Origin: Chryseobacterium endalhagicum
GTDB lineage: Bacteria > Bacteroidota > Bacteroidia > Flavobacteriales > Weeksellaceae
NCBI RefSeq assembly: GCF_016745235.1
Contig: NZ_JAELVM010000003.1
Coordinates: forward strand, 806,001-870,000
Direction: 5' to 3'
Length of the DNA: 64,000 nucleotides
How positions within the stretch are numbered: the first letter of the stretch is position 1; each line of letters starts with the position of its first letter. This document shows, piece after piece, positions 8,366-43,602 of this stretch. The position numbers were made by a program, and so were the translations under genes. The notes beneath the pieces were generated by a model. It did not search any database. It had not been told where the DNA came from and worked only from the letters and a program-made list of their open reading frames with translations.

Positions 8366-8722
8366 GATTTTTCTTGAAATATTTAAATTAACCCATATTA
8401 TATATATCGTAAAATCATGACTTTACGATGTCACTAAACTATGAAAAAATAAATAAACTTAAGCAGTCCGGATCAGAAATTAATATTATCCGGCTGGAAG
8501 CTGGAAAAGGGAGGCTGGAAGTTAACTATGGTAAGGGTTAAACCTTGCCATGCTCAGGCTACAAAACTGTTTGCAGTGCTGATTTTAGTTTCAACACCCT
8601 CCTTTTCCGGTTTCCTGATATCATTAAAAACAAAATATCTTATCCATGACTCCTATTAAAATAAGAATTCCTCCGGTGAGGGGAAAAAATATTCTTTATA
8701 TTTAAACAAAGTAAACAGAGTC
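8366..8722. other. divergent intergenic region with decayed repeat
   Basis: Separates tssB (minus) from the kinase-like gene (plus) and must hold both promoters. 8492-8525 carries GGCTGGAAG...GGCTGGAAGTTA, the right-end sequence of the ~162-bp family B element, followed by an imperfect palindrome at 8528-8551 (ATGGTAAGGGTT/AAACCTTGCCAT) and a possible decayed left end ending TTTCCTGAT near 8621. Confidence 0.55.
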
Positions 8723-16940: not shown

Positions 16941-17675
16941 CTAGGAAAAGACCTTCAGGAAATTGTCCTTAAAGCTGCCTGAAACTTCAATCTCCGTATC
17001 ATCTGAAAGCATTACGGTTCCGCTTTTATGGTAAGATTTTACAAAACCTGCATTGATGATATGGGAACGGTGAACCCTTACAAAAGGATTTTCGAGAAGA
17101 TCATCAAAATGCTTCAGGAATCGGCAAACCATTTTCTTTGAGCCATCGGTAAGATAAACCTGGGTAAAGTTTCCATCTGCCTGCAGCCTTAAAATATCCT
17201 CTGTTTTCACCACATCAAACCCCTGAAGTGTAGGCAGAATGAGCTGCTGTTTTTCGGGTTTTAACTTTAAATTTTCGAGGAGAATTTTATTACGGTTAAG
17301 TTCTTCTTTTTTTTCAAGGCTTTCCGCTACTTTATTAACCGCCAGAATAAGTTCCTGGATATCTATCGGCTTTAAAATATAATAACTGGCAGATTTATTA
17401 AGCGCCTGCAGTGAATATTGGGAAAATGCGGTGATAAAAATAGTTTCGTAGGAAAACTCCTTAGTTGCTTCCAGCACATCAAATGCATTTCCGAACGGCA
17501 TTTCCACATCCAGAAATACCAGTTGCGGCTGTTCTTCAGCGATCAGAGGAACGGCTTCTTTGATATTTTCCGCCTCGCCTACAATTTCTATCTGCGGGCA
17601 GTATTTGGTGAGATAATTCCTAAGGACTTCTCTTGCAATGAGCTCATCGTCTACGATTACGGATTTTATTTTCAT
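16941..17675 (-). CDS. LytTR family response regulator
   Basis: 244 residues. The receiver domain has D9/D10 (VIVDDE), phospho-acceptor D56 (LVFLDVEMP), and K102-like ILKPID. The C-terminal LytTR DNA-binding domain from about 140 shows LRLQADGNFTQVYLTDG and PFVRVHRSHIINAGFV. LytTR proteins bind paired ~9-bp direct repeats two helical turns apart. It is the last gene of an operon with a TPR histidine kinase (first) and a small secreted protein (middle), so the kinase is its likely partner. Confidence 0.93.
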   Translation of the reverse strand: MKIKSVIVDDELIAREVLRNYLTKYCPQIEIVGEAENIKEAVPLIAEEQPQLVFLDVEMPFGNAFDVLEATKEFSYETIFITAFSQYSLQALNKSASYYILKPIDIQELILAVNKVAESLEKKEELNRNKILLENLKLKPEKQQLILPTLQGFDVVKTEDILRLQADGNFTQVYLTDGSKKMVCRFLKHFDDLLENPFVRVHRSHIINAGFVKSYHKSGTVMLSDDTEIEVSGSFKDNFLKVFS

Positions 17676-17692
17676 TTTAAGGGATTAGGTTT

Positions 17693-17719
17693 TAGGGATT
17701 AGGGATTAGGGATTAGGGA
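17693..17719. repeat. short 7-bp tandem repeat (TAGGGAT)n
   Basis: About 3.9 copies of TAGGGAT in the 53-bp gap between the LytTR regulator and the secreted protein gene. Simple repeat, non-coding. Confidence 0.85.
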
Positions 17720-17728
17720 AAGGAAATG

Positions 17729-18448
17729 TTATTGGTATTTTCCGTTTTTGAATTTCAGGATGTTGTATGAGGTATGTGATACTTCATTTTGTTTGCAGTC
17801 TCCGTTTTTTTCTTCGTTTTTTGTATTGACGGATATGGTTTTGATCTTTAAATCTGTAAAATTATTGGTTTTTGTTTTATCCATCATGATTACGGAATTT
17901 TCGTCATTAAACTCCCCGTTGCATCGGGTATCCCATTCTCCGCCATGGGTATTTAATTCTAAATTATTTAAAACTTTTTTAATCCCGGCTCCAGCAGGAT
18001 AATACAGCGAAATGACTTCTGATGAATAAGGATTGGGCTGGCTTCCGTTTCTGACACTTATTTTCACTCCAAATGCCCTGATTCCATTGCTGATATGGTA
18101 TAAACCCGTATCTATCGTAATTTCCTGAAGCATTACCGCATCGGAAGTGATTTCATGAGGATCGAAATACTGGTTTTTAATTCCTCCGTTTTCATCTGTA
18201 ATGACAATATAATTCCTGAATACAAAAAAGCCGTCCCCATCTTTTTCCTGCACGACAGGAATAACGGCAATATAGGAATCCTGTTCGTTCGGCATTTTCT
18301 TTTCGGTAGAGAACTCTTCTTTGATATTCGTTTTATCCAGTTTCAGATGTTTCACTATATTTTCATAGCGGACACTGTTGATTTCCTGTCCGTGCACTGT
18401 TGCTGTGAATATCACAAACCAGATGAATATATATTTCTTCATTTCCAT
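17729..18448 (-). CDS. hypothetical secreted protein between kinase and regulator
   Basis: 239 residues; signal peptide ends near TVHGQ. No family recognised. The mature part is acidic and beta-rich, with YIAVIPVVQEKDGDGFFVF, a pair of cysteines in DTRCNGEF and GDCKQNE that could form a disulfide, and no membrane segment. It starts 4 bp after the stop of the TPR histidine kinase and is followed by the LytTR regulator, so it is embedded in the two-component operon. That position suggests, but does not prove, a periplasmic accessory or a target of the system. Confidence 0.7.
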   Translation of the reverse strand: MEMKKYIFIWFVIFTATVHGQEINSVRYENIVKHLKLDKTNIKEEFSTEKKMPNEQDSYIAVIPVVQEKDGDGFFVFRNYIVITDENGGIKNQYFDPHEITSDAVMLQEITIDTGLYHISNGIRAFGVKISVRNGSQPNPYSSEVISLYYPAGAGIKKVLNNLELNTHGGEWDTRCNGEFNDENSVIMMDKTKTNNFTDLKIKTISVNTKNEEKNGDCKQNEVSHTSYNILKFKNGKYQ

Positions 18449-18452
18449 GCTA

Positions 18453-20234
18453 TTAAGCCAGATTGATTTTTATATGAACTAAAACGCCGCTGCTGCCTTC
18501 CTTATCCTTGATGGAACAGGTGATGTCTTTTTTATACAGCTCATTCAGCAGCCTGATTCTTTCTACCGTATTTTTCATCCCGCGTCCTTCTCTTGTCTTC
18601 TGGTGCTCGGTCTTTTGCTTTTTACTTTCTTCAATCCCGATGCCATTGTCTTCAATGGTGATTTTTAAATACTGGTCTTCTTTTTCAAAACTTAATTTCA
18701 AAAATCCTTTATCATTTCTGTAGCGCAGCCCGTGCCAGACGGCATTTTCAAGGAACGGCTGAATGAGCATTCCGGGAACTTTCAGGCTCTGCATATTCAG
18801 GCTTTCGTCTACCTCAATTTCGTAATCGAATTTATCGGCAAAACGTGTTTTTTCAAGGGCAAGATAATTCTGAAGCAGATCCAGCTCCTGCTGGAACGGA
18901 ATAAAATCCTCGGCAGAATTTTCCATTACACCTCGCATCAGCTTTGAGAATTTCGTCAGGTACTGGTTGGCTTCCAGCTCGTTATTCGTCGCAATAAAAT
19001 GATTCACACTGTTTAAACTGTTGAAGATAAAATGCGGGTTCATTTCACGTCTCAGCGATTGCAGGGCGATTTTTTTATTTTTAATCTGAACTTTTTTCAG
19101 GGTTCTGAAAATAAAGATGATCAAACCGGTCAGCAGGATCAGAACTCCGATCAGGCTGTAATTAAATACACTTTTCTTGCGGATCAGCTCGTCTTTAAGC
19201 CCTTTTTCTTTTTCAAGCTGTGAGATTCTCTGTTCAGTATCTTCAAGTATTTTATTGTCTACAAGGCTTCTGTCCTTTGAAACCAGATCAGGAAGTTTCC
19301 CCAGAAAATCCCGGTACAATGTCACAGAAGCATTGGTATTTCCCGATATATTGTAAAGGCTGTCCAGTCTTTTTACACTTTTCTGCGCTTCCAGGGTATG
19401 TCCTTTTTCAAGGGCAATTCCGTATGCATTTTTAAGTAAGACCACCGCTTCCTCAGGATCATTTTTCTTAATATAAATATCGGCCAGCTCCTGAATCTGA
19501 TTGACTTTTTCCTGTGAATTCTCTTTCACAAAATCTTCTTTCAGGACTTTCTTTTTGGCTTCAATGGCTTTTTCAAAATTCCTGTTTTCAACATAGAAAT
19601 TGGTCAGCTTCTGATTGATCTCCAATGCCTGCTGCGGTGCTTCTTTTTTAGACAGAACATACGCGTTGTTCAGGTTTTCTTCCGCTTTGGGAATATTATT
19701 CTGCTGGATATTCACATCAGCCAGCTGACTGTAATTTTCGGCCAGATCGCCTTTATCCTTTTCTTTAAGATTGAGTTTAATATTATCCTGGATGGCTTCC
19801 GCTCTCTGTTCAGGTGTCGGAGAAGAAAGTCTGGCAGCATCATTGGTATTCACGGCCTTGCTTTTTTCACTGTAGCTCATCTCGGCGGCCATGCTGTAAT
19901 TGCTGATCGCCGGAGTTATTTTGTTCTGTTTTTCCTGGGACTGGGCAATTTTCCGGGTAACGGATTCCAGATTTTTTTTATCATTGAGATTTTTGTAAAT
20001 CGTTCTGGCCTTCACCAAAAACTCTTCACTTTTGGCATAATTCCCTTGATTGTAATAATCACCGGCAATTCCCACATAGCTGTCGGCCACGCCTTTATTA
20101 TCATTATTGTCTACCGCTTTTTTCAGCCTGGCTGTAGATTTATAAGCCTTGGTAACCCGCGTAGAATCCTGTGCCTGACAGAAATTTCCTGCAGCCAGAA
20201 TGAAGATAAAAAGTATTTTAAAAACTATATTCAC
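18453..20234 (-). CDS. TPR-containing sensor histidine kinase, LytS/His_kinase type
   Basis: 593 residues: signal peptide (ending near GNFCQAQ), several tetratricopeptide repeats over about 30-320, one transmembrane helix at about 357-377 (LIGVLILLTGLIIFIF), the His_kinase domain with phospho-acceptor H401 in REMNPHFIFNSLNS, and a HATPase domain (ENAVWHGLRYRN, IEDNGIGIEESK, GRGMKNTVERI). This is the sensor class paired with LytTR regulators. The TPRs are on the periplasmic side. First gene of a three-gene operon ending in the regulator. A 21-bp-spaced CACCAAGT pair lies 57 bp upstream. Confidence 0.93.
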   Translation of the reverse strand: MNIVFKILFIFILAAGNFCQAQDSTRVTKAYKSTARLKKAVDNNDNKGVADSYVGIAGDYYNQGNYAKSEEFLVKARTIYKNLNDKKNLESVTRKIAQSQEKQNKITPAISNYSMAAEMSYSEKSKAVNTNDAARLSSPTPEQRAEAIQDNIKLNLKEKDKGDLAENYSQLADVNIQQNNIPKAEENLNNAYVLSKKEAPQQALEINQKLTNFYVENRNFEKAIEAKKKVLKEDFVKENSQEKVNQIQELADIYIKKNDPEEAVVLLKNAYGIALEKGHTLEAQKSVKRLDSLYNISGNTNASVTLYRDFLGKLPDLVSKDRSLVDNKILEDTEQRISQLEKEKGLKDELIRKKSVFNYSLIGVLILLTGLIIFIFRTLKKVQIKNKKIALQSLRREMNPHFIFNSLNSVNHFIATNNELEANQYLTKFSKLMRGVMENSAEDFIPFQQELDLLQNYLALEKTRFADKFDYEIEVDESLNMQSLKVPGMLIQPFLENAVWHGLRYRNDKGFLKLSFEKEDQYLKITIEDNGIGIEESKKQKTEHQKTREGRGMKNTVERIRLLNELYKKDITCSIKDKEGSSGVLVHIKINLA

Positions 20235-20253
20235 GGATTTCAGATCTTTAATG

Positions 20254-20261
20254 CAAAGTAA
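20254..20261 (-). promoter_or_regulatory. candidate -7 box of the histidine kinase operon
   Basis: Minus-strand TTACTTTG approximates TAnnTTTG and sits 20 nt before the kinase start. The CACCAAGT pair lies 30 bp further upstream. Prediction only. Confidence 0.45.
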
Positions 20262-20291
20262 CTAAAACTTTATGTATCTGATCCTATTCTC

Positions 20292-20320
20292 CACCAAGTC
20301 AAAACTCTGTTTCACCAAGT
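20292..20320. promoter_or_regulatory. paired CACCAAGT site near the kinase operon
   Basis: Exact CACCAAGT at 20292-20299 and 20313-20320, 21 bp apart start to start. Same pair and spacing as at 22601-22629 and 23428-23456. Relative to the kinase gene (minus) the orientation is reversed compared with the other two sites. Proposed binding site for the LytTR regulator encoded in this operon. Confidence 0.7.
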
Positions 20321-20385
20321 TTGATTGAAATATAGGGTACTGTAATTTTTTTTAACCAGTTTGGGACAAGAAGTTAAGAGGAAAA

Positions 20386-20546
20386 GGCTGGAAGATGGAA
20401 GCTAGAGGCTGGAGGTTACTACACACAATAATATTAAATAGCTGCCTTTAAATTTATAGAAGTAGATTCAAAAATTAATAAACCGCGATATATCTCTGTC
20501 TTCGGGCTTCAATAACTTCCCTCTTCCAGCTTCAAACTTCCTGACC
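20386..20546 (-). repeat. family B ~162-bp interspersed element, full copy
   Basis: 161 bp. In reverse complement it begins GGTCAGGAAGTTTGAAG and ends CTTCCATCTTCCAGCC, and aligns end to end with 43439-43602, including interior words (ATATCG, CTACTTC, CTATTTAATA). The two ends are imperfect inverted repeats of about 35 bp, so the whole can fold into a hairpin. No coding capacity. Confidence 0.85.
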
Positions 20547-20678
20547 CTATTATACAAACGAAAATGCATTATTCCGAACTCAGGTTAATGAGTAAAAATC
20601 ATTCTGATTTTTAAGCCGGGGTTTTAAAAGTTTGATAAAGGGGATTTATTATATACCACTGAAGCGTGAGTCTTTTGC

Positions 20679-20686
20679 TATCTTTG
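20679..20686 (+). promoter_or_regulatory. -7 promoter box of the amidohydrolase gene
   Basis: TATCTTTG fits TAnnTTTG exactly, 21 bp before the ATG at 20708, implying a leader of about 15 nt. Confidence 0.65.
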
Positions 20687-20707
20687 TCTGGTACTTACAT
20701 TAAAATC

Positions 20708-22462
20708 ATGAATAAAAAACTCCGAATTATACTTGTAGCTTTATTTTATGCAGGTAGTTTTAATGCACAGATCTACATTCAGAATGTAACGGTTGCGGAT
20801 GTTATCCATAAAAAGATGATTCCGGGCCAGACTGTTATCATGAATGGCAAAACCATTACAGCAGTAAAACCCAGCAAGCAGGTTAAAATCCCTCAGAACT
20901 CCCATGTCATTAATGGTGAAGGTAAATACCTGATTCCCGGGATGACGGATGCGCACGTTCACTTTTTTCAGAGCGGAGGCTTGTATACCAGACCGGATGC
21001 CCTTGATCTCAGAAAGCATGTTCCTTACGAAAAAGAGATCAGCTGGAGCCATAATCATATGGAAGGTCTTATGCAGCGTTATCTTAAAATGGGGATTACT
21101 TCGGTCATTGATCCGGGAGCGACCTATAATTTGCTGAAACTTAGAGATTCCCTGAAAGTCAATGAGCGTCTGCCTTCAGTGTATATGTCCGGACCGCTGA
21201 TTACCACATACGAACCGGAAGTTTTTAAAAATCTCAATAAAAATGAACCTTTCAGGCTGCTTACATCCATTGATGATGCCAAAAAGCTGGTACAGGAACA
21301 GATTCCCTACAAACCTGACTTTATCAAAGTATGGTATATCATCACGGGAGATCCTGCTAAAAAGAAAGAACAGACGAAGAAGCTGGAACCAACCATAAAA
21401 GCTGTTATTGATGAAGCCCACAGAAATAATTTAAAAGTAGCCGTTCATGCTACAGAACGCTTTACGGCAGAAACCGCAGTACTCAACGGTGCTGATTTTC
21501 TGGTTCATAATATAGAAGATGAGATCATTTCTGATGATTTTGTAAAGCTTTTAAAATCAAAAAAAGTCATTGTAAGCCCTACCCTCACGGTCATGGATAA
21601 TTATTATGATACCTATGGACAAAAGAAAGTCTACAATACTTACGAACTGGAAAATTCCGATCCTGAAAGCATCGGCTCTATGTACGACCTGAAGCATCTT
21701 ACGCAAACCTCAGATTCTGTGGTGCTCAATAAGTTTAAAGCAAGATTCAATACCCCTCAAACAAAAGCTTATATTTCAAAAATGGATTCTATCCGGAAAG
21801 TCAATCTCAAAAAACTGGCTGACGGAGGGGTAATGCTTGCTGCAGGTACCGATGCCGGAAATATCGGAACTCAGCATGCTTCATCTTTCATTGCGGAACT
21901 TAAAGCCATGAAAGAAAGTGGGATGAACGAATGGCAGGTCCTTCAGTCAGCGACCATCATTCCTGCAAAGATCCTTAATAAAGAAAACGAGTACGGCAGC
22001 ATAGAAGCAGGTAAAACCGCCGATTTTGTATTACTGAATGCTAATCCGGTTGATCAGCTGGATAATCTTACAAAAATCGATCTGGTGATGAAAAACGGGT
22101 TGCCTGTAGATCTGGCAAAAATTGTAAACGTCACACCGGAATCTCTGGCCCAGCAGCAGCTTAATGCGTACAACGCAAGAAATATTGATGCTTTTCTGGA
22201 ACCTTATGCCGAGGATGTGGAGATGTATTTATTCCCTTCAAAGCTGATCAGCAAAGGAAAAGAGGCTATGAGAAAAACCTATTCCGCTATGTTTGAAAAA
22301 TATCCTGATCTGCACTGCGAGCTTAAACAGAGGATCGTGAATCTTAATTCTGTTATTGATAAGGAAAGTGTTTCCGGAATGAGACCGGGTATGAAAACCG
22401 AAGCAACGGCTATCTATGAGATTAAAAATGATAAAATTTCAAAGGTTTACTTTTTATATTAA
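20708..22462 (+). CDS. secreted amidohydrolase fused to an NTF2/SnoaL-like domain
   Basis: 584 residues from the ATG at 20708, chosen because it gives a proper signal peptide (ending near FNAQ) and sits just after a promoter. Amidohydrolase fold: HxH (H83, H85) in GMTDAHVHFF, candidate metal-bridging lysine in DFIKVWY, metal histidines in VAVHATE and FLVHNIEDE, and the catalytic aspartate in AAGTDAGN. The last ~120 residues (LNAYNARNIDAFLEPYAEDV onward) look like a SnoaL/NTF2-like domain, an uncommon attachment. Likely an imidazolonepropionase/prolidase-like hydrolase in the periplasm; substrate unknown. Confidence 0.87.
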   Translation: MNKKLRIILVALFYAGSFNAQIYIQNVTVADVIHKKMIPGQTVIMNGKTITAVKPSKQVKIPQNSHVINGEGKYLIPGMTDAHVHFFQSGGLYTRPDALDLRKHVPYEKEISWSHNHMEGLMQRYLKMGITSVIDPGATYNLLKLRDSLKVNERLPSVYMSGPLITTYEPEVFKNLNKNEPFRLLTSIDDAKKLVQEQIPYKPDFIKVWYIITGDPAKKKEQTKKLEPTIKAVIDEAHRNNLKVAVHATERFTAETAVLNGADFLVHNIEDEIISDDFVKLLKSKKVIVSPTLTVMDNYYDTYGQKKVYNTYELENSDPESIGSMYDLKHLTQTSDSVVLNKFKARFNTPQTKAYISKMDSIRKVNLKKLADGGVMLAAGTDAGNIGTQHASSFIAELKAMKESGMNEWQVLQSATIIPAKILNKENEYGSIEAGKTADFVLLNANPVDQLDNLTKIDLVMKNGLPVDLAKIVNVTPESLAQQQLNAYNARNIDAFLEPYAEDVEMYLFPSKLISKGKEAMRKTYSAMFEKYPDLHCELKQRIVNLNSVIDKESVSGMRPGMKTEATAIYEIKNDKISKVYFLY

Positions 22463-22493
22463 AATGTGACTGGAGGCTGGAAGTTACTGCCGG

Positions 22494-22528
22494 AAACCAT
22501 GTCAAGGTTTTGAACCTTGACATGGTTT
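22494..22528. repeat. perfect 16-bp-arm palindrome
   Basis: AAACCATGTCAAGGTT, 3-nt centre, exact reverse complement. Preceded at 22467-22487 by GGAGGCTGGAAGTTACT, the right-end sequence of family B. A similar but imperfect pairing occurs at 8492-8551. Confidence 0.85.
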
Positions 22529-22560
22529 GTTGATAAAAAAAGCCTATTCAAAAAGCTTGA

Positions 22561-22593
22561 AAAGACGATTCTCACGGGGATCGTCTTTTTTTT
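22561..22593 (+). terminator. terminator downstream of the amidohydrolase gene
   Basis: Stem AAAGACGAT/ATCGTCTTT followed by eight or more T residues; separated from the gene by a repeat palindrome. Confidence 0.85.
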
Positions 22594-22600
22594 GACCATC

Positions 22601-22665
22601 CACCAAGTGAAAAGCTCATTTCACCAAGTCTCTTTATTTCGGGTTCCGGATCGCAGTAATTTTAC
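22601..22665 (+). promoter_or_regulatory. paired CACCAAGT site and -7 box before the SIMPL gene
   Basis: CACCAAGT at 22601-22608 and 22622-22629 (21-bp period). The second copy ends 27 bp before TAATTTTAC at 22657-22665, a TAnnTTTG-like -7 box, and 59 bp before the ATG. The same arrangement recurs before the DUF4139 gene. Confidence 0.75.
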
Positions 22666-22688
22666 ATCAGAATTTAAAACAGAAAATT

Positions 22689-23363
22689 ATGAAATTAAGA
22701 CATTTTTTATTAATCGGGATCTTTACACTGGGAAGTTTTGCGAATGCACAGGAAGTAAAGAAAAATGCAATTGAAGTTACAGGAATGGCAGAAATGGAAG
22801 TGGAACCGGATGAGATCATCTTCAGCATCGGCATCAAAGCTGATAACAAGAATGAACTGGCAGACAATGAAAAGAAGCTGTTCGAAACGTTGAAGAACGG
22901 AGGTGTTAAAAACGAAGACATCAAATTCAAATCCATGTACCAGAACATATATGCTAAAAACGGAAAGTTCACGAAGAGCTACCAATTTAAAGCCAATACA
23001 AAAGCGAACATCAGCAAAATATTTGAAGACCTGAACCAGAAATGGGTAAGCAACCTGAATGTAGCTGAAGTGAAAAACACTAAAATAGCAGATTTCAGAA
23101 AAACGATTAAGATCAATGCTTTAAAAGCAGCAAAAGAAAAGGCAGATTACCTGTTGGAAAGTATGGGTAAAAAAACCGGAGCTCCTCTGGAAATCATCGA
23201 AATTGAAGATTATACCAGCGATATGGTTCTACCCGTAGCCTATAAAAGCAGTGTGAGAAATATGCAGCTGGAAGCAGCAGATGCCGCGGTAGATTTTTCT
23301 TTTGACAATATTGAGAATATCAAGCTGAAATACAGCATTAAAACAAGGTACGAAATCCTTTAA
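22689..23363 (+). CDS. SIMPL domain (DUF541) secreted protein
   Basis: 224 residues; signal peptide ends near SFANAQ. The SIMPL/DUF541 domain covers most of the rest: AIEVTGMAEMEVEPDEIIFSI at the start, KNGGVKNEDIKFKSM, and ALKAAKEKADYLLESMGKK near the end of the domain. Family members are periplasmic or surface proteins linked to stress tolerance and oligomeric assemblies; the exact function is unclear. Single gene with its own promoter and a terminator, sharing a paired CACCAAGT site with the next gene. Confidence 0.9.
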   Translation: MKLRHFLLIGIFTLGSFANAQEVKKNAIEVTGMAEMEVEPDEIIFSIGIKADNKNELADNEKKLFETLKNGGVKNEDIKFKSMYQNIYAKNGKFTKSYQFKANTKANISKIFEDLNQKWVSNLNVAEVKNTKIADFRKTIKINALKAAKEKADYLLESMGKKTGAPLEIIEIEDYTSDMVLPVAYKSSVRNMQLEAADAAVDFSFDNIENIKLKYSIKTRYEIL

Positions 23364-23380
23364 AATTAACAGATTTAAGA

Positions 23381-23406
23381 CAGTCCGAAAGGGCTGTTTT
23401 TTTGTT
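23381..23406 (+). terminator. terminator of the SIMPL gene
   Basis: Stem ACAGTCC/GGGCTGT with GAAA loop (one G-T wobble) followed by a T-run, 18 bp after the stop. Confidence 0.8.
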
Positions 23407-23427
23407 TTTCAACCTGCTTTTTCAACT

Positions 23428-23492
23428 CACCAAGTGAAAGGCCTGTTTCACCAAGTCTCCCGGTTTTGAGCCTTAAATACTGATAATTTTAC
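23428..23492 (+). promoter_or_regulatory. paired CACCAAGT site and -7 box before the DUF4139 gene
   Basis: CACCAAGT at 23428-23435 and 23449-23456 (21-bp period). The second copy ends 27 bp before TAATTTTAC at 23484-23492 and 60 bp before the ATG at 23517, the same geometry as before the SIMPL gene. Confidence 0.75.
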
Positions 23493-23516
23493 TTCAGGAA
23501 TTTAAAATAATATACT

Positions 23517-25121
23517 ATGAAACGCTATTTAATACTACTCATTGCATTTTCTGTTTCATTTTTAAAAGCACAGGAAATAAAAAAAGAAATTGATATAAAG
23601 CAGGCTACCGTATACCTGCAGGGAGCCAAAGTTTTCGGAAGCACCAATATCAGCCTTCAGAAAGGAAAAAATAGGGTGAGAATCATCAATCTTCCGAACA
23701 ATCTGGACGAAAATACCTACAAGATCAATCTTGAAAAAAATACTACGCTTCTTTCTGTGACGCCACAGAGCAACTTCCTGAAAAGTGACGAATTATCTGA
23801 AGGAGAAAAGAAACTGGATGATGAAAGAAAAAAATTACAGCGCCAGGCCAGTCTCCTGAACATTCAGATCAAAAATCTGACGGGTGAGCAGAATATCATC
23901 AATGATAATTTAAAGATTTCCACCAATGATAAATCTACTCCGCAGGAACAGCTGATCAAACTGACTGAATTCTACAGAAAAAGAATGCTGGAAATTGACA
24001 ACCAGGTTTTTGTACTGAATGAGCAGAAATCTGTTTTGGATGAAAGCATTGCCAAAATCAATAAGCAGTCCGCGGAAGAGCAGACGAACAAAAATACCAA
24101 CAGAAAAGAGCTTCTTCTGGAAATCCTTGCAGATTATGAAACGAACCTGAACTTAGGCGTAAGCTATATTGTTTCTGATGCGGGATGGATTCCATCTTAC
24201 GACCTGCGTGCAGAATCTGTAAAAAAACCTCTTGAAATGGTTTACAAGGGAAAAATCTATCAGAAAACCGGTCAGGACTGGAAAAATGTAAAACTGTTTG
24301 TGTCAACGTACAGACCTTCTTACAACCAGAACAGACCTATTCTGTCTCCGCTTTATGTAGCTGAATATACGGCTTACAACGCACAGGCTGAAACGGCCAA
24401 TTACAAATTAAAAGCAGCAGCCAAGGAAGTTAATTCTTACCAGATGAGAGATGAGGTCGCGGTGGCAGCACCAAGCCAGATTCCTGTAGCAACAGTTTCG
24501 GACAGCCAGATGAATGTGATTTATGAACTCAATTATAATCAGACCATCTTAAGCCAGGAAAAAGAACAGTACGTTATTCTTGACAAAAAACAGATTGAAG
24601 CTACCTACAAATACCACACAGTTCCAAAACTGAATAACCAGGTATTCCTGATGGCCTTCATCAAAAACTGGCAGAATCTGAACCTGATTTCCGGAGAAGC
24701 CAATATTTATTTTGAAGATAATTATATCGGAAAAACAGATATCACCACCCATTATGTAAAGGATGAATTCCCGATTTCTCTGGGTGTGGACGAAAGAATT
24801 ACGGTGAAAAGAATCAAGCTGGAAGATAAAACTTCGCAAAAAACACTGAACAGCAATAAATGGGAAACAGAATCCTATCAGATCAGCATCAGAAACAATA
24901 CGAAGGAAAGCATTGAACTGGAAATCCTTGATCAGCTTCCGATCAGCGAAAATTCTAAAATTCAGGTTAAAGCCCTGGAAATTGGAAACGGAAGTTTTGA
25001 TGAGAAAACGGGCAGCATTCTTTGGAACAGAAATATCGGCAGCGGAAGCTCGGACAAAATTAATTTCTCCTACGAAGTGAAGTATCCGAAAGAAATGCAG
25101 ATTCAATATTACAGCAGATAA
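23517..25121 (+). CDS. DUF4140/DUF4139 (mucoidy inhibitor MuiA-like) protein
   Basis: 534 residues. Signal peptide ending near FLKAQ; N-terminal DUF4140-type beta domain (IDIKQATVYLQGAKVFGSTN); a long coiled coil around 85-185 (KKLDDERKKLQRQASLLNI); then the DUF4139 domain from about SYIVSDAGWIPSYDLRAE to the C-terminal SFDEKTGSILWNRNIGS. Family members are conserved, secreted or envelope proteins of unknown biochemistry, sometimes called mucoidy inhibitors. Followed 18 bp later by the VWA gene, so the two form an operon under the paired CACCAAGT site. Confidence 0.88.
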   Translation: MKRYLILLIAFSVSFLKAQEIKKEIDIKQATVYLQGAKVFGSTNISLQKGKNRVRIINLPNNLDENTYKINLEKNTTLLSVTPQSNFLKSDELSEGEKKLDDERKKLQRQASLLNIQIKNLTGEQNIINDNLKISTNDKSTPQEQLIKLTEFYRKRMLEIDNQVFVLNEQKSVLDESIAKINKQSAEEQTNKNTNRKELLLEILADYETNLNLGVSYIVSDAGWIPSYDLRAESVKKPLEMVYKGKIYQKTGQDWKNVKLFVSTYRPSYNQNRPILSPLYVAEYTAYNAQAETANYKLKAAAKEVNSYQMRDEVAVAAPSQIPVATVSDSQMNVIYELNYNQTILSQEKEQYVILDKKQIEATYKYHTVPKLNNQVFLMAFIKNWQNLNLISGEANIYFEDNYIGKTDITTHYVKDEFPISLGVDERITVKRIKLEDKTSQKTLNSNKWETESYQISIRNNTKESIELEILDQLPISENSKIQVKALEIGNGSFDEKTGSILWNRNIGSGSSDKINFSYEVKYPKEMQIQYYSR

Positions 25122-43438: not shown

Positions 43439-43602
43439 GGTCAGGAAGTTTGAGGTCCGAAGATGGAAGTTATTGATGCCCAAAAGCAGCATTGTCATAT
43501 CGTTTTAATATTTCCAACCTACTTCAAGGAATAATTTTAAGGTAACTATTTAATAGTGTTGCCTAACAGTAACTTCCAGCCTCCCGCTTCCATCTTCCAG
43601 CC
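43439..43602 (+). repeat. family B ~162-bp interspersed element, full copy
   Basis: 164 bp, opposite in orientation to 20386-20546 and alignable end to end with it. Begins GGTCAGGAAGTTTGAGG, ends CTTCCATCTTCCAGCC; the inverted ends can pair over about 35 bp. It fills almost the whole gap between two convergent stop codons (43431 and 43607), so it may also work as a terminator. Confidence 0.85.

Follow-up and report, generated by a model that had tools for sequence, protein, structure and literature searches.

Three exactly spaced paired repeats as predicted operators of a LytTR response regulator in Chryseobacterium endalhagicum

A stretch of 64,000 nucleotides from Chryseobacterium endalhagicum (assembly GCF_016745235.1, contig NZ_JAELVM010000003.1, positions 806,001 to 870,000 of the forward strand; hereafter the window, numbered from its first letter) contains three copies of a paired direct repeat, located before a sensor kinase operon, a gene for a SIMPL protein and a DUF4139-VWA gene pair. 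Judging from the sequence and its conservation, the pair is a real, strongly conserved regulatory element and very probably the operator of the LytTR response regulator encoded next to it. We hold with high confidence the whole explanation, in which all three pairs are predicted operators of this regulator (16941-17675) and it would control SIMPL, DUF4139-VWA and the kinase operon; that the adjacent regulator is the protein binding the pairs appears, taken separately, highly likely. The sites and the promoter-like boxes that accompany them are listed below.

20292..20320, plus strand: pair 1, predicted site of the kinase operon (minus-strand gene), 57 bp upstream of the kinase GTG, in orientation opposite to the gene
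20254..20261, minus strand: TTACTTTG, -7-like box belonging to the kinase operon, at a distance of 30 bp from pair 1
22601..22629, plus strand: pair 2, predicted site of the SIMPL gene, 59 bp before the ATG
22657..22665, plus strand: -7-like box TAATTTTAC of SIMPL, 27 bp after pair 2
23428..23456, plus strand: pair 3, predicted site of DUF4139-VWA, 60 bp before the ATG
23484..23492, plus strand: -7-like box TAATTTTAC of DUF4139, 27 bp after pair 3

The 8-mer CACCAAGT occurs six times in the window, always on the plus strand and always within one of the three pairs, which have a start-to-start period of 21 bp (architecture CACCAAGT-N13-CACCAAGT), span 3.2 kb and adjoin the regulator operon. Window scans were checked against 100 shuffles: the six single copies were equalled in one shuffle, and three pairs at up to three mismatches in none. 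When the whole 4.93-Mb genome was scanned, these three were the only pairs with 0, 1 or 2 mismatches; 20 further matches carried three mismatches each, and a reversed control pattern gave 29 matches. A first-pass annotation of this DNA had reported three exact pairs at these positions with a 21-bp period and no other pair in the window. Both statements were confirmed, and the second extends to the whole genome at up to two mismatches. The promoter geometry that it described as common to SIMPL and DUF4139 was also reproduced: TAATTTTA begins 27 bp past the second copy at both genes, and 59-60 bp separate pair and ATG. That annotation did not mention that pair 1 is oriented opposite to the adjoining minus-strand kinase gene.

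Conservation was assessed in the 80 best loci for the kinase (1.68 Mb, all Chryseobacterium), in which orthologous genes were located by tblastn. Locus L086, where the kinase match begins at residue 50, was left out of the kinase counts, leaving 79 usable loci, and genes with a match starting after residue 20 were excluded from the site-distance counts, with no SIMPL rows lost. Same-strand copies of CACCAAGT (up to one mismatch) were found 21 bp apart 206 times, while the next commonest spacing was seen 7 times and the reversed motif reached 2. At up to two mismatches the loci contained 211 pairs, none of which shares its strand with the kinase gene. A pair lies 36-59 bp upstream of the kinase gene in 79/79 usable loci, at most 330 bp before SIMPL in 75/75 (at most 80 bp in 73) and 55-63 bp before DUF4139 in 41/42, the sole exception being L069, where a rhodanese gene stands between the site and DUF4139. 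The first-pass annotation had named the absence of the pair before orthologous genes in relatives as the finding that would speak against its proposal; these counts show the pair in place. Its prediction that VWA is controlled is retained for VWA as a downstream gene and has to be amended for some relatives: VWA directly follows DUF4139 in 26 loci and SIMPL in 14, has a site of its own in 16, is otherwise arranged in 7 (in one of which, L080, a site lies 349 bp upstream) and was not found in 17. In none of the 16 loci where VWA has its own site was a DUF4139 gene found by tblastn. Sites were also seen before a protein of 191-200 residues that has no Pfam match over the cut-off (L092 and L158).

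An alignment of the relatives' sites, anchored on the site, gave the consensus TTCACCAAGTGAAA-N6-TTTCACCAAGT, whose centre is variable, and, downstream, TAATTTTAC; the half-sites and the box are conserved and the spacer is variable. A TAnnTTT[GA] box, whose background frequency is 0.0016 per position, starts 27-28 bp past the site at SIMPL in 71/71 cases, at DUF4139 in 39/40, at VWA in 16/16 and at other sites in 5/5. On the kinase side, TTACTTTG (37 loci) or TATCTTTG (42 loci) starts at 29-30 bp in 79/79; with the half-site redefined as the 10-mer TTCACCAAGT, the distance to the box becomes 27-28 bp on both the kinase and the target sides. The text available for PMC9723704 places the sigma-A box of Flavobacterium psychrophilum at -12 to -5. 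If this placement is carried over, the sites would span approximately -68 to -40, the position of an activator.

The far side of the kinase site carries a box at 24-31 bp in 33/79 loci, in 24 of them as TAAGTTTG at 28 bp, and in three genomes outside the genus (G240, G289 and G290) a box stands at 27-30 bp on each side. In the window, the first 45 bp on the far side of pair 1 contain no box of the TAnnTTT[GA] type, so pair 1 is predicted most likely to serve the kinase operon alone here. The divergent amidohydrolase gene (20666-22462) was considered as a target of pair 1 and rejected: a box at 24-31 bp on that side was found in 0/19 loci where the gene starts within 100 bp, and in the window its start is about 345-390 bp away with no box on that side. 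The amidohydrolase is thus probably not a target. Between pair 1 and this gene, at 20385-20415, lies one of several short intergenic repeats of the AGGCTGG type, with further words at 8492-8513 and 22473-22475 and, reversed, at 43573-43594. In relatives, the far side of the kinase site in L140 is followed by a protein of 321 residues resembling, by eye, the SIMPL-domain proteins of 308-321 residues that stand behind further sites in L110, L137, L151 and L158 (Pfam E-values between 1e-7 and 1e-10).

The first-pass annotation had proposed asking whether the pair tracks with orthologues of the kinase in related genomes. We did so in 173 Chryseobacterium genomes, calling the pair at up to one mismatch and the kinase at E <= 1e-60; some species are represented both among the named loci and among the numbered genomes, so the two sets are not independent. 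The pair was present in 166 genomes and the kinase in 165: both in 165, the kinase only in none, the pair only in one and neither in seven, so that every kinase-bearing genome of the genus has the pair. The reversed control pattern at the same stringency matches 8/173. The one genome with the pair only, G107, was rejected as an instance of a genuine site in a genome lacking the kinase, as its single match has one mismatch and only 2/5 flank positions and looks like chance. Among 147 genomes outside the genus, a kinase orthologue (E < 1e-100) was present in five, namely G240, G247, G289, G290 and G184. The pair with all five flank positions was found in the first four of these and in 0/142 genomes without a kinase orthologue, nor does it occur in any of the six further genomes that contain a bare pair. 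Targets distant from the kinase retain the pair, which distinguishes regulation from mere linkage: in G004 the kinase is separated from SIMPL-VWA and a SIMPL-domain gene by about 2.0 Mb in contig coordinates (about 1.4 Mb in the opposite direction if circular), SIMPL of G030 lies at 209 kb and DUF4139 of G075 at 19 kb, and in all three genomes pairs occur at both places. In G247 (locus L176) a pair stands at DUF4139 on another contig.

A diverged orthologue, in G184 (44% identity for the kinase, 64% for the regulator), has no CACCAAGT pair. Instead, AATGGGTAAA occurs twice, exactly 21 bp apart, between the kinase gene and a divergent VWA gene. A box stands 28 bp off in each direction, TTACTTTA towards the kinase and TAGCTTTG towards VWA. 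Its half-site agrees with the Chryseobacterium ACTTGGTGAA in the same orientation at 7/10 positions (hand count). The repeat was spotted by eye first and measured afterwards; a 10/10 repeat at 21 bp was reached in 27/5000 simulated sequences. The geometry was thus kept while the letters drifted, the pattern to be expected of a site read by a LytTR dimer.

The genes of the module are given below; domain search showed that the first-pass annotation had assigned the LytTR regulator, kinase, SIMPL, DUF4139 and VWA domains correctly.

16941..17675, minus strand: LytTR response regulator, the proposed binder; receiver PF00072 and LytTR PF04397, both over the cut-offs
17729..18448, minus strand: PA3715 family protein, between kinase and regulator; NCBIfam NF052451, E 6.5e-64
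18453..20234, minus strand: TPR-containing sensor histidine kinase; His_kinase PF06580 (E 1.8e-21), HATPase_c and TPRs
22689..23363, plus strand: SIMPL (DUF541) secreted protein, predicted target; PF04402, E 2.2e-19
23517..25121, plus strand: DUF4140/DUF4139 protein (MuiA family), predicted target; Pfam domains and NCBIfam TIGR02231
25140..26333, plus strand: VWA-domain protein, predicted target via the operon; 18 bp downstream of DUF4139

The nearest NCBIfam model of the regulator is BtsR (NF008677; E 1.5e-29, 103.1 bits, below the 246-bit cut-off), and the best 60 of its 92 matches to solved structures are mainly receiver-domain entries. The PA3715 family protein is an optional member of the operon; many of the 80 loci gave no tblastn match to it. 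Between that gene and the regulator gene, inside the presumed operon, a tandem heptamer AGGGATT is repeated in 5.7 copies (17680-17719). Literature listings for DUF4139/MuiA and for SIMPL/YggE/DUF541 offered no usable function.

From these results a mechanism may be proposed. The TPR kinase would sense a signal, probably periplasmic, and phosphorylate the regulator, two molecules of which would occupy the half-sites (TTCACCAAGT core) side by side on the same DNA face, 21 bp corresponding to two helical turns. From this position, immediately upstream of a sigma-A promoter whose -7 box is weak, the regulator would help RNA polymerase to start at SIMPL, at DUF4139-VWA and, as feedback, at the kinase operon itself. 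We consider it probable that the regulator activates rather than represses. Apparent signal peptides and family names incline us, with less assurance, towards a regulon acting on the cell envelope.

Several observations weigh against this interpretation. The genomes compared are related and therefore not independent as evidence of co-occurrence, so the Fisher p of 1e-11 for the genus is overstated. The eight kinase-less genomes of the genus also lack SIMPL (0/8) and VWA (0/8), and a DUF4139 match is absent from 5/8, the other 3/8 having at most a homologue of 30-31% identity; site and kinase are thus inherited together as a module that is gained or lost whole, and co-occurrence alone is no proof of binding. 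Outside the genus, the bare pair (10/147) is no commoner than the reversed control (11/147), a frequency not above chance, and it is the flanks and the kinase that make the difference. No recognisable pair precedes the orthologous kinase of G247. Within the genus the LytTR domain (66/100 invariant positions) is not more conserved than the receiver domain (78/120), and the genome encodes 20 LytTR domains. Finally, the kinase site has the opposite orientation relative to its gene to that of the target sites.

This last point would suit a regulator that represses at the pairs, or that acts with opposite signs at the kinase promoter, with its flipped site, and at the target promoters. We regard this as unlikely: about 40 bp lie between the end of each site and the start deduced from the F. 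psychrophilum box placement (PMC9723704, available text), which keeps the promoter clear; at SIMPL and DUF4139 the -7 box differs from TAnnTTTG in its last base; and HdrR, a LytTR protein with repeats at a like position, activates, as stated in the available part of PMC6193735. Even less likely, in our estimation, is that the pairs are operators of another protein, be it one of the other LytTR regulators, for which the 20 domains offer alternative binders, or a dimeric helix-turn-helix factor reading the inverted repeat GTGAAA-N6-TTTCAC that the conserved inner GAAA...TTT bases form together with CAC/GTG. The pair, however, tracks this particular kinase within the genus and beyond and precedes it in 79/79 loci; in G184 the half-site is altered, yet the 21-bp direct-repeat period and the box distance are kept; and the 8-mers are direct repeats with asymmetric outer flanks. 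The idea that the similarity reflects recent promoter duplication within one gene cluster, or chance, with no regulatory role, can practically be dismissed: all three pairs do lie within 3.2 kb, but the spacers vary while half-sites and box stay constant, pairs distant from the kinase precede the same kinds of genes, and 4.93 Mb contain no fourth pair at up to two mismatches. Binding by the adjacent LytTR regulator remains the explanation that we favour.

A more general possibility, about which we are rather doubtful, is that LytTR systems in this branch of Bacteroidota follow a common positional code. Each regulator would have its own half-site, repeated at exactly 21 bp, a TAnnTTTG-type box would come about 27-29 bp further on, and the promoter of the kinase itself, often a two-way one, would serve as the anchor. 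The window system, the diverged G184 orthologue and one paralogous system (4/4 orthologues looked at) can be cited in its support. In the latter, a group of LytTR kinases from L218, L242, L249 and L253, a repeat near TTNRTCGRAA at 21 bp is accompanied by a TAnnTTTG box at 27-29 bp in 4/4, and an alignment blind to spacing gave 30/40 at 21 bp versus at most 25 elsewhere; the choice of this group followed the scan, and visual inspection had first suggested three of its repeats. It points towards a general code but does not prove one. A blind scan of the regions upstream of 23 kinases, recognised by motif in 55 stretches, tells against the code: 10-mer repeats at 8/10 numbered 10 at 21 bp and 1-8 at other spacings, a weak excess at best, and at 9/10 the excess vanished, three other spacings matching the 2 repeats seen at 21 bp. 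With a TAnnTTTG box as an additional requirement, an earlier scan had given 14 overlapping matches at 21 bp versus at most 7 elsewhere, with at least one far from any kinase. If such a code were true, the regulons of roughly 20 LytTR proteins per genome would be readable from sequence.

According to the available text of PMC4847170, a LytTR operator consists of two 9-11 nucleotide repeats with 11-13 nucleotides between them. The site discussed here may be read as an 8-mer with 13, a 9-mer with 12 or a 10-mer with 11 intervening nucleotides and is compatible with this format; in length, period and ACC core the sites fit the LytTR operator class. The closest comparison is with E. coli BtsS/BtsR (YehU/YehT), likewise a LytS-type kinase with a LytTR regulator, BtsR being the best NCBIfam match. 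The BtsR oligonucleotide as printed in the accessible part of PMC4847170 contains ACCGCTTA-N13-ACCACTCA and shares with the window sites the 8+13 arrangement, i.e. the 21-bp period, and the ACC start. Unlike BtsR, the window regulator scores below the BtsR equivalog cut-off, and the half-site CACCAAGT, the TPR sensor kinase and the target genes are different. For E. coli YpdA/YpdB, the same portion of PMC4847170 gives a direct repeat of the 10-mer GGCATTTCAT, bound cooperatively by two YpdB molecules, and the oligonucleotide reads as a 21-bp period; by description, half-site, kinase type and targets differ.

The LytTR regulatory systems (LRS) HdrRM, BrsRM and their relatives have autoregulatory repeats, e.g. 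ACCACTTAC-12 bp-ACCACTTGC, near -35 and close upstream of the promoter (PMC6193735, available part). Read as 9-mers, the SIMPL site is similar: ACCAAGTGA-12 bp-ACCAAGTCT. An LRS reportedly pairs a LytTR protein with an inhibitory membrane protein rather than a receiver domain with a kinase; the window system has receiver domain and kinase and, by this definition, falls outside the LRS. Repeats before Bacteroides LytTR operons have been predicted before: LRS-like operons there have predicted 11-bp repeats 11 bp apart, a period of 22 bp versus 21 bp here, as far as the same part of PMC6193735 describes them. Among the open-licence papers listed for LytTR in Chryseobacterium, flavobacteria or Bacteroidetes, titles and abstract openings described no such regulon, and by that measure flavobacterial LytTR regulons look hardly charted. 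Among them the present locus is an unusually sharp case, with few sites per genome, exact spacing and a short list of predicted targets, and the prediction of targets and geometry is unusually full. It ties SIMPL, MuiA-like DUF4139 and VWA proteins, for none of which an assigned function was found, to one sensor kinase, and in the relatives examined these little-studied genes are marked by the same sites; finding the signal of the kinase would tell what these proteins are for. With its receiver and LytTR domains, its adjacent PF06580 kinase and its operator format, the system joins the LytS/LytTR (BtsR/YpdB-like) class as a new member.

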